Below, one piece after another: positions 33,236-33,772 of a DNA stretch of 64,000 nt. The first letter of the stretch is position 1. Every line of letters starts with the position of its first letter. The stretch covers positions 1 through 64,000 of the forward strand of contig PGZL01000004.1 in NCBI GenBank assembly GCA_002840095.1, written 5' to 3'. Position numbers and translations under genes: made by a program. Source of the stretch: Gammaproteobacteria bacterium HGW-Gammaproteobacteria-1 (GTDB lineage: Bacteria > Pseudomonadota > Gammaproteobacteria > Thiohalomonadales > Thiohalomonadaceae). Under the pieces are notes generated by a model. That model was not told where the DNA came from. It ran no database searches and saw only the letters and a list, made by a program, of their open reading frames with translations.

Positions 33236-33300
33236 AATGTTGAATTGTGAATTTCGACGGCGGCTGCCGGTGGAATTCACAATTCAACATTTTTTGTTTT
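33236..33300. terminator. Perfect 18-bp inverted repeat (GAATT heptad family) with T-rich tail
   Basis: An 18-bp perfect inverted repeat (33236-33253 with 33274-33291, core TTGAATTGTGAATT) has a 20-nt GC-rich loop and is followed by TTTTTGTTTTTT. It can act as a terminator after ispE. The arm itself has a 7-nt period (GAATT spaced by 7), which links it to the heptad inverted repeats. Confidence 0.65.
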
Positions 33301-33301
33301 T

Positions 33302-33449
33302 TGGGGCGAAGACTAGCGGTAAGGGAACGGGTTTTGATCCCGTCATACCCAGGTTCGACAAATTCGCCGGGAGCGAATTTGGACGCCGCGAACAGCGGCG
33401 GCCCCGAAGGGGCGAGGCCCATGGACGGGCCTCGCAATCCTGGCGCCCC
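33302..33449 (+). pseudogene. tRNA-Gln pseudogene with a 78-nt four-hairpin insert in the T-loop
   Basis: 33302-33358 matches the intact tRNA-Gln at 33532 from acceptor through GGTTCGA, including the identical TTG anticodon arm, with about five changes in the D arm that break its stem. After GGTTCGA comes a 78-nt insert (33359-33436), then ATCCTGGCGCCCC resumes. No CCA follows. The insert folds as AAATTCGC/GCGAATTT, CGCCGC/GCGGCG, GCCCC/GGGGC and CGAGGCCC/GGGCCTCG in series. Confidence 0.75.
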
Positions 33450-33531
33450 CTCCTTAGTGTTTGGCTATGGGGGATGCGAGACGCAGTGTTCGCGCAGCTT
33501 AACTGCAGCGAAACTTAATGAAACAAGTTTT

Positions 33532-33606
33532 TGGGGCGTCGCCAAGCGGTAAGGCAACGGGTTTTGATCCCGTCATACCCAGGTTCGAATCCTGGCGCCC
33601 CAGCCA
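33532..33606 (+). tRNA. tRNA-Gln (anticodon TTG)
   Basis: Intact cloverleaf: acceptor TGGGGCG/CGCCCCA, D arm GCC-AAGCGGTAA-GGC, anticodon arm ACGGG-TTTTGAT-CCCGT reading CAA/CAG, T arm CCAGG-TTCGAAT-CCTGG, discriminator G and encoded CCA. It lies between ispE and prs. GatCAB in this window is consistent with, but does not prove, a transamidation route to Gln-tRNA. Confidence 0.97.
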
Positions 33607-33643
33607 CCTAACTCAGGCCGCCGCAGGTGGCCTGGAACATGTT

Positions 33644-33772
33644 GCTGGGGCGCCAGGATTTGAACCGTAAGGTTCGACTGGTTCGCGGCGGCGAACCGGA
33701 ACAGCGGAGCGTAGCGACGCTGGCCCGCAGGGCGAGGGGCGGCAGCCCCGAGTAATCCTGGCGCCCCAGCCA
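33644..33772 (+). pseudogene. Second interrupted tRNA-Gln 3' fragment inside a 17-bp inverted repeat
   Basis: GGTTCGA (33671-33677), a 77-nt insert (33678-33754) and ATCCTGGCGCCCCAGCCA (33755-33772) repeat the interrupted T-arm arrangement of 33302-33449. Upstream, 33644-33666 is the reverse complement of the same tRNA end, so GCTGGGGCGCCAGGATT pairs with AATCCTGGCGCCCCAGC. The insert again gives four hairpins (GGTTCGC/GCGAACC, CAGCG/CGCTG, GCCC/GGGC, GGGGC/GCCCC), with a sequence that differs from the first insert. Confidence 0.7.

Follow-up and report, generated by a model that had tools for sequence, protein, structure and literature searches.

The two inserts that interrupt tRNA-Gln-derived sequence in the window (the whole stretch of 64,000 nucleotides analysed here) are very likely both copies of a palindromic, non-autonomous mobile element that measures some 65–90 nt, folds into four hairpins and usually has (C/T)GA as its target. 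Both belong to one module family, copies of which are dispersed, follow a common target motif, occupy sites found empty elsewhere and stand in frame within protein genes. The RtT RNA of Rfam (RF00391) is best read as the tRNA-associated form of this palindromic mobile element. The initial annotation had suggested a small non-autonomous element that targets the T-loop. The non-autonomous element is well supported, but its confinement to T-loops is not, modules having been found also at start codons, in the interiors of open reading frames and in other modules.

All features of the locus are read on the forward strand. Copy 1 begins with a decayed tRNA-Gln 5′ part, from the acceptor to GGTTCGA (33302–33358), which agrees with the intact tRNA at 52 of 57 positions, with mismatches at positions 8, 9, 11, 13 and 24; ARAGORN calls no tRNA on copy 1. 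In its T-loop lies the first four-hairpin module, of 78 nt (33359–33436), recognised by its fold, by an end-to-end alignment with the Rfam RtT model that stays below the gathering threshold (17.5 bits, E 1.4), and by 90.7 bits with the covariance model R1, module 1 itself being among the 7 sequences used to build that model. The tRNA 3′ end then resumes from ATCC, without CCA (33437–33449). The intact tRNA-Gln, with anticodon TTG and CCA (33532–33606), was identified by ARAGORN and by the Rfam tRNA model (62.4 bits). Copy 2 comprises, in order, an inverted tRNA 3′ half, GGTTCGA, the module and a tRNA 3′ half. Its inverted arm (33644–33666) is the reverse complement of the tRNA 3′ half (GCTGGGGCGCCAGGATTTGAACC), as revealed by exact 10-mers at 33644–33660, and the sequence of the left half of the T-loop, GGTTCGA, follows at 33671–33677. 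The second four-hairpin module, of 77 nt (33678–33754), scores 35.9 bits with R1 (E 1.8e-5), and 33637–33772 as a whole exceeds the gathering threshold of Rfam RtT (50.9 bits versus 45). The unit is completed by a copy of the tRNA 3′ end with CCA at its end (33755–33772). The reported interruption of the T-loop is thus correct: both inserts are bounded by GGTTCGA on the left and ATCC on the right, the right boundary being ambiguous by one A. The accompanying description of the two copies needs one correction: a nearly complete tRNA 5′ part is present in copy 1 but not in copy 2, which has the inverted 3′ half instead. Tandem intact tRNA copies were rejected, ARAGORN calling one tRNA-Gln only at the locus. 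Phage records resembling this stretch were also set aside; among the matches listed, it was mostly the tRNA itself that aligned.

A comparison with genomes of the same genus provides the empty site. In G003, a single uninterrupted tRNA-Gln stands in this place, with outer flanks like those of the locus in the window, while G001, G002 and G004 possess the tRNA together with a copy-2-type unit, which in G004 is diverged and gives no RF00391 match. The upstream flank of copy 1 resembles the upstream flank of the tRNA in G002 and G003, and the flank 3′ of copy 2 matches the empty site of G003. Since both outer flanks resemble those of the G003 tRNA, the window contains, relative to G003, 395 nt of extra DNA (33359–33753) between the T-loop halves. 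It seems that copy 1 marks the ancestral tRNA position and that the intact tRNA-Gln is a duplicate. The ancestral tRNA-Gln would have been split at the T-loop base, with the 395-nt addition between its halves; at tRNAs, an interrupted copy would survive because an intact one adjoins it. Just upstream of the tRNA, 33236–33296 is occupied by a long inverted repeat, GAATGTTGAATTGTGAATTT ... GGAATTCACAATTCAACATT, with T-runs after it; the same-genus genomes have this repeat in the same place, with a variable loop.

Both inserts fold alike, as initially described, into four successive hairpins of −48.7 and −44.9 kcal/mol, with z-scores of −5.3 (insert 1) and −3.7 (insert 2) against 300 mononucleotide shuffles. 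When the locus was compared with the genus by BLAST, modules of the copy-1 type turned up away from tRNAs, and R1 was built from copy 1, five dispersed genus modules and one RtT core. Copy 2 was outside the model, and its recovery by R1 therefore indicates that the inserts are related and not unrelated sequences. The expectation that the fold is conserved over changed sequence also proved right. Across 83 distinct rows, 93.8% of cells are paired versus 69.6% in shuffles and 471 cells are changed on both sides of the stem versus 139, a count that leans towards R1, with which the rows were found and to which they were aligned. Covariation of RtT as such has already been published (PMC7657543, PMC8250186). 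Several copies (L304, L319, L334, L348 and others) have a hairpin 3 with an extra nested hairpin (e.g., CCCCGTAGCGCGCAGCGCGGAGGGG).

The loops are conserved as well. The flank set was reduced from 196 rows to 161 unique ones and then to 124 copies with independent flanks, flanks shorter than 12 nt or near-identical being left out; CANGGANG is present in 94 of the 124. The loop counts omit 5 copies with fewer than three folded hairpins; of the other 119, GGA stands in the first loop of 111 and in the last of 113, and 133 of 207 middle loops have the form C-GNA-G. Triloops of this form possess special stability in DNA. The GGA loops of hairpins 1 and 4, which recall the RsmE/CsrA consensus, would agree with another reading, in which the module is a predicted CsrA/RsmA-binding RNA decoy or control element and its mobility spreads regulation to new genes; positions at start codons would suit translational control. 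Such a role is decidedly unlikely: neither E. coli rttR nor copy 2 of the window has GGA loops, the conservation of the loops could equally serve a mobilising enzyme, and R1, built from GGA-loop sequences, favours them.

The module family is a dispersed multicopy palindrome both in the window's own genome and in the class survey. The own genome has at least 17 R1 matches at E ≤ 1 (150 of 1509 candidates scored, copy 2 not among the matches listed), and R1 also matches 110 of the 274 class genomes (E ≤ 0.001), where copy numbers per genome are lower bounds because at most 17 candidates per genome were scored. In the phylum, R1 matches occur in 39 of 299 genomes (E ≤ 1e-5), including 24 outside the class, 21 of which belong to one family (f191). 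In the own genome, four near-identical modules (L065–L068) lie within a longer composite repeat, which is followed by TTTCTTT-rich sequence.

The copies defined by R1 lean on the leading GA that this model contains, so a flank-neutral sample was begun after the G. This exact-pattern sample, fixed from the A onwards, comprises 109 copies among the matches listed, from 100 stretches of species genomes; it represents one subfamily and was not deduplicated. G precedes the leading A in 104 of these 109 copies (CGA 72, TGA 20, GGA 9), and after the merging of similar upstream flanks it does so in 53 of 58 (CGA 31, TGA 14), with GGTTCG in 15. The contexts of the 109 listed copies include GGTTCG (39), GGATTCG (one, L302) and ATG (8). 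The flank patterns of the 124 independent-flank copies place 24 in T-loops in the sense orientation, 8 at CAT with GA (ATGA), 4 in D-loops and 88 elsewhere. The terminal inverted repeats and target duplication of MITEs were not found in flanks, ends or comparisons of filled with empty sequence, where at most one base, itself ambiguous, could be duplicated.

At GGTTCGA/AATCC, the tRNA T-loop is a prime target of the element, yielding RtT. A strictly sense orientation at T-loops was considered and rejected, antisense T-loop copies making up 3 of the 124: L166, downstream of tRNA-Met, and two units of the L056 array. The latter, in contig C57 of the own genome (approximately 1300–1740), lies downstream of tRNA-Pro(GGG) and has three units in tandem, whose modules stand in the T-half of that tRNA copied in antisense; it is an antisense RtT-like array. 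Sense T-loop copies still outnumber antisense ones by 39 to 1 among the exact-pattern copies listed, although the antisense strand also offers TTCGA/A, and selection or a role at the RNA level may therefore act too. An RNA step, or selection on RNA, possibly lies behind both this predominance and the inverted arm.

Besides T-loops, the module occurs in D-loops of tRNA-Ser, at ATGA start codons, in frame inside open reading frames and in other modules (nested copies L175 and L182). The D-loop modules lie upstream of an intact tRNA-Ser (L118, L158, L163, L181), an arrangement that mirrors the downstream RtT, and L118 and L163 carry both. At a further D-loop copy (L116), no tRNA was called; the contig ends there. 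In L095 (1501–1580), a module preceded by GGTTC lies some 80 nt downstream of a tmRNA gene, much as RtT follows tRNAs. On the reverse strand of L117, tandem units with a period of 217 precede an intact tRNA-Ser(CGA) gene. The module in them comes after GACTCGA, which may be the anticodon loop from a partial tRNA-Ser(CGA).

Filled and empty versions of the same site were found at the tRNA-Gln locus (empty in G003), in a phage gene and in a pair of PglZ genes. In the viral gene, compared over the best 80 of 192 relatives, one of which (L263) begins inside the gene, 2 of the 80 homologues contain the module as a 72-nt insertion, in frame, after ATGA. The module is absent from the viral protein of L213, which is 96% identical to a filled homologue. 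Among the six ATGA insertions examined, the length is either 72 or 75 nt, and the open frame that they leave begins MTNSSGTNLD; three of the eight CAT-GA copies (L060, L081, L171) were left out of the frame check. Among the eight ATG copies of the exact-pattern sample, the frame continues for 90 to 716 residues in six and ends after 31 and 40 in the other two.

The proteins with the module at these ATG copies include a GlyS and a BREX-3 PglZ, both with a module-encoded N-terminus, after which the match to the protein family begins at residue 31 in each (885 and 728 bits, respectively). Another of them, a protein of the PmbA/TldD type, contains two tandem modules. Two PglZ proteins, 84% identical, have N- and C-terminal modules in common, and one of them contains two further in-frame module insertions of 25 residues, one per strand, that the other lacks. 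In L110 (G154:C1:1266000-1275000), a BREX-3 PglZ gene and a long helicase-like open reading frame contain many modules in both orientations, with the frames kept.

The initial annotation had also offered a tRNA-derived non-coding RNA as an explanation. This holds for the T-loop form with arms, which corresponds to Rfam RtT and repeats at its 3′ end that of the tRNA next to it, but not for the core, which is also found without a tRNA. A tRNA lies upstream on the same strand in 27 of the 28 RF00391 matches (Gln, Ser, Tyr, Val, Arg, Glu), which come from 16 genomes in a set of 56 relatives that contains the own genome (E ≤ 0.01); the remaining match, L023, is at a contig end, and the comparison with the neighbouring tRNA was made for the 27 others. 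In 25 of these, the 3′ end of RtT copies the 3′ end of the adjacent tRNA, the exceptions being L019 and also L010, where masked bases intervene. Copy 2 of the window, too, lies downstream of a tRNA and carries a copy of its 3′ end, which is the position characteristic of RtT. The inverted arm is clear in L001, L002 and L008 and weak in L005, L013 and L017.

The repetition of the tRNA 3′ end, the exact repetition of the first 10 nt after the tRNA in 13 of 27 loci (several of them from single arrays) and the arrays L025, L027, L028 and L056 are what would be expected of local tandem duplication with template switching, in which tRNA arrays arise and no element moves. As an account of the whole this is very improbable, being contradicted for the core, since it leaves unexplained both the cores at unrelated places and the filled and empty phage and PglZ sites. 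It is likely that tandem duplication is true of the arms of RtT and not of its core.

The same anatomy was found in E. coli K-12, where the tyrT/rttR region reads GGTTCGA-module-GAGTA-ATCC. E. coli rttR (RF00391) and the window unit share the four-hairpin core, the copy of the tRNA 3′ end, the inverted arm and tandem repeats; however, the E. coli RtT follows tRNA-Tyr, whereas the 3′ end here tracks whichever tRNA is adjacent and the core occurs tRNA-free as well. Modules lie outside the listed genes in records of Klebsiella, Salmonella and E. coli. The E. coli copy at L395 interrupts a repeat after GAGTGA, presumably one resembling RSA/YPAL, and is present in 604 of 5,426 genomes at 605 places. 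Its joined flanks were found in 5,375 of the 5,426 genomes, at a median of 5 places each; among the 15 matches listed, 13 are uninterrupted over the full 109 nt, one is in two pieces with 71 extra bases and one is partial. These uninterrupted copies are other members of the repeat and not the orthologous site (ybfA). The occurrence of the filled copy once per genome in nearly all 604 carriers probably reflects one old event and not present activity.

To our knowledge, the RtT RNA family has no known function. RtT might nevertheless be what it has classically been taken for, a functional small RNA or cis-regulatory piece that is processed from tRNA operons and maintained for its role as RNA, with similar hairpins elsewhere coincidental or exapted. 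The Rfam assignment, the mostly sense orientation of T-loop copies and the strong covariation agree with this, as does a published mention of an RtT sRNA among the ncRNAs raised in Thioalkalivibrio at low temperature (PMC8092127). This explanation is unlikely, given that the core also lies outside tRNAs, that phage and ORF positions have empty relatives, that the target motif is common to all these contexts and that antisense T-loop copies exist; besides, RF00391 matches only 51 of the 274 class genomes (E ≤ 0.001) versus 110 for R1. An account of RtT as a mobile element was not met with among the matches listed from the open-access literature.

The insertion point of the mobile palindrome appears to lie directly 3′ of a short motif, which is usually (C/T)GA, and in many cases an A comes next; at most one ambiguous base is duplicated. 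The C-GNA-G triloops, together with this mode of insertion and its lack of a longer duplication, suggest transposition via a single strand. Conjecturally, the folded strand would be moved by an enzyme acting in trans, of the HUH type or another; a single-strand-folding recombination site, one of the alternatives raised at the outset, is a possible mechanism. Among the candidates examined, no mobilising transposase for the module was found. The same hairpins and mode of insertion, and the triloops, would suit a single-stranded DNA element moved in trans by a Y1 transposase of the RAYT/IS200-IS605 type, that is, a variant of REP/REPIN. Y1 genes are present in 12 of 12 module-rich genomes, and the association of PF01797 with the module is moderate (79 of 110 module-bearing versus 88 of 164 other genomes, Fisher p 0.0025). 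Nevertheless, this identification is unlikely. A search for modules flanking Y1 transposase genes (PF01797) at 30 loci in 12 genomes gave one weak match only (E 0.056), and 31 of the 110 module-bearing genomes have no PF01797 match (E ≤ 1e-6), including G138 (100% complete) and G080 (99%). R1 likewise has no match at the K-12 REP clusters upstream of gatY, rbfA and cvpA.

The module resembles several known systems. REP, BIME and REPIN sequences with RAYT (GTAG and CGTC families) are also multicopy palindromes, some of them within ORFs (PMC3733652). The module, however, is a longer four-hairpin unit, the listed copies have no GTAG/CGTC tag at their ends as judged by eye, and the Y1 genes examined have no flanking modules. 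For the rtT-like BIME attenuators, Naville and Gautheret 2010 (PMC2965389) described a dispersed enterobacterial cluster with similarity to rtT, and stated that rtT resembles BIMEs. An identity of RtT with BIME was rejected, as R1 finds no module at the three K-12 loci named above, where Rfam calls naRNA4 (below gathering at cvpA). Rickettsia palindromic elements (RPE) are likewise short palindromes in frame in protein genes (PMC10969869, PMC6649704); their published length is about 150 bp, and the module differs from them, in a comparison by description only, in its four hairpins, YGA target and tRNA-loop insertions. A catalogue of stem-loop repeats in 40 bacterial genomes contains unnamed families, some of about 80 nt in Pseudomonas (PMC2267715). 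Compared by description only, the module family could be among these, where it might be labelled Pae-1 or Ppu-4, for example.

Tentatively, and with somewhat more doubt than confidence, the family may be regarded as a new class of transposable element, shorter than 100 nt and enzyme-less, which would target YGA in exposed loops and start-codon overlaps, perhaps by a single-strand or RNA-mediated route, would add 24–25 residues, N-terminal or internal, to proteins that apparently still work (a glycyl-tRNA synthetase subunit among them), and would be the source of RtT RNAs. How enzyme-less palindromes move can be tested on laboratory strains: sites are at hand in filled and in empty form, and some E. 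coli strains have the copy while others lack it. On the reading of the inserts as mobile palindromes, RtT gains an origin as the tRNA-interrupting form of such an element, and one target rule would cover insertions at start codons, in structural RNA genes and, with the frame kept, in coding sequence, in an element that occurs in many genomes of the class to which the window belongs and in one or more other classes of its phylum.
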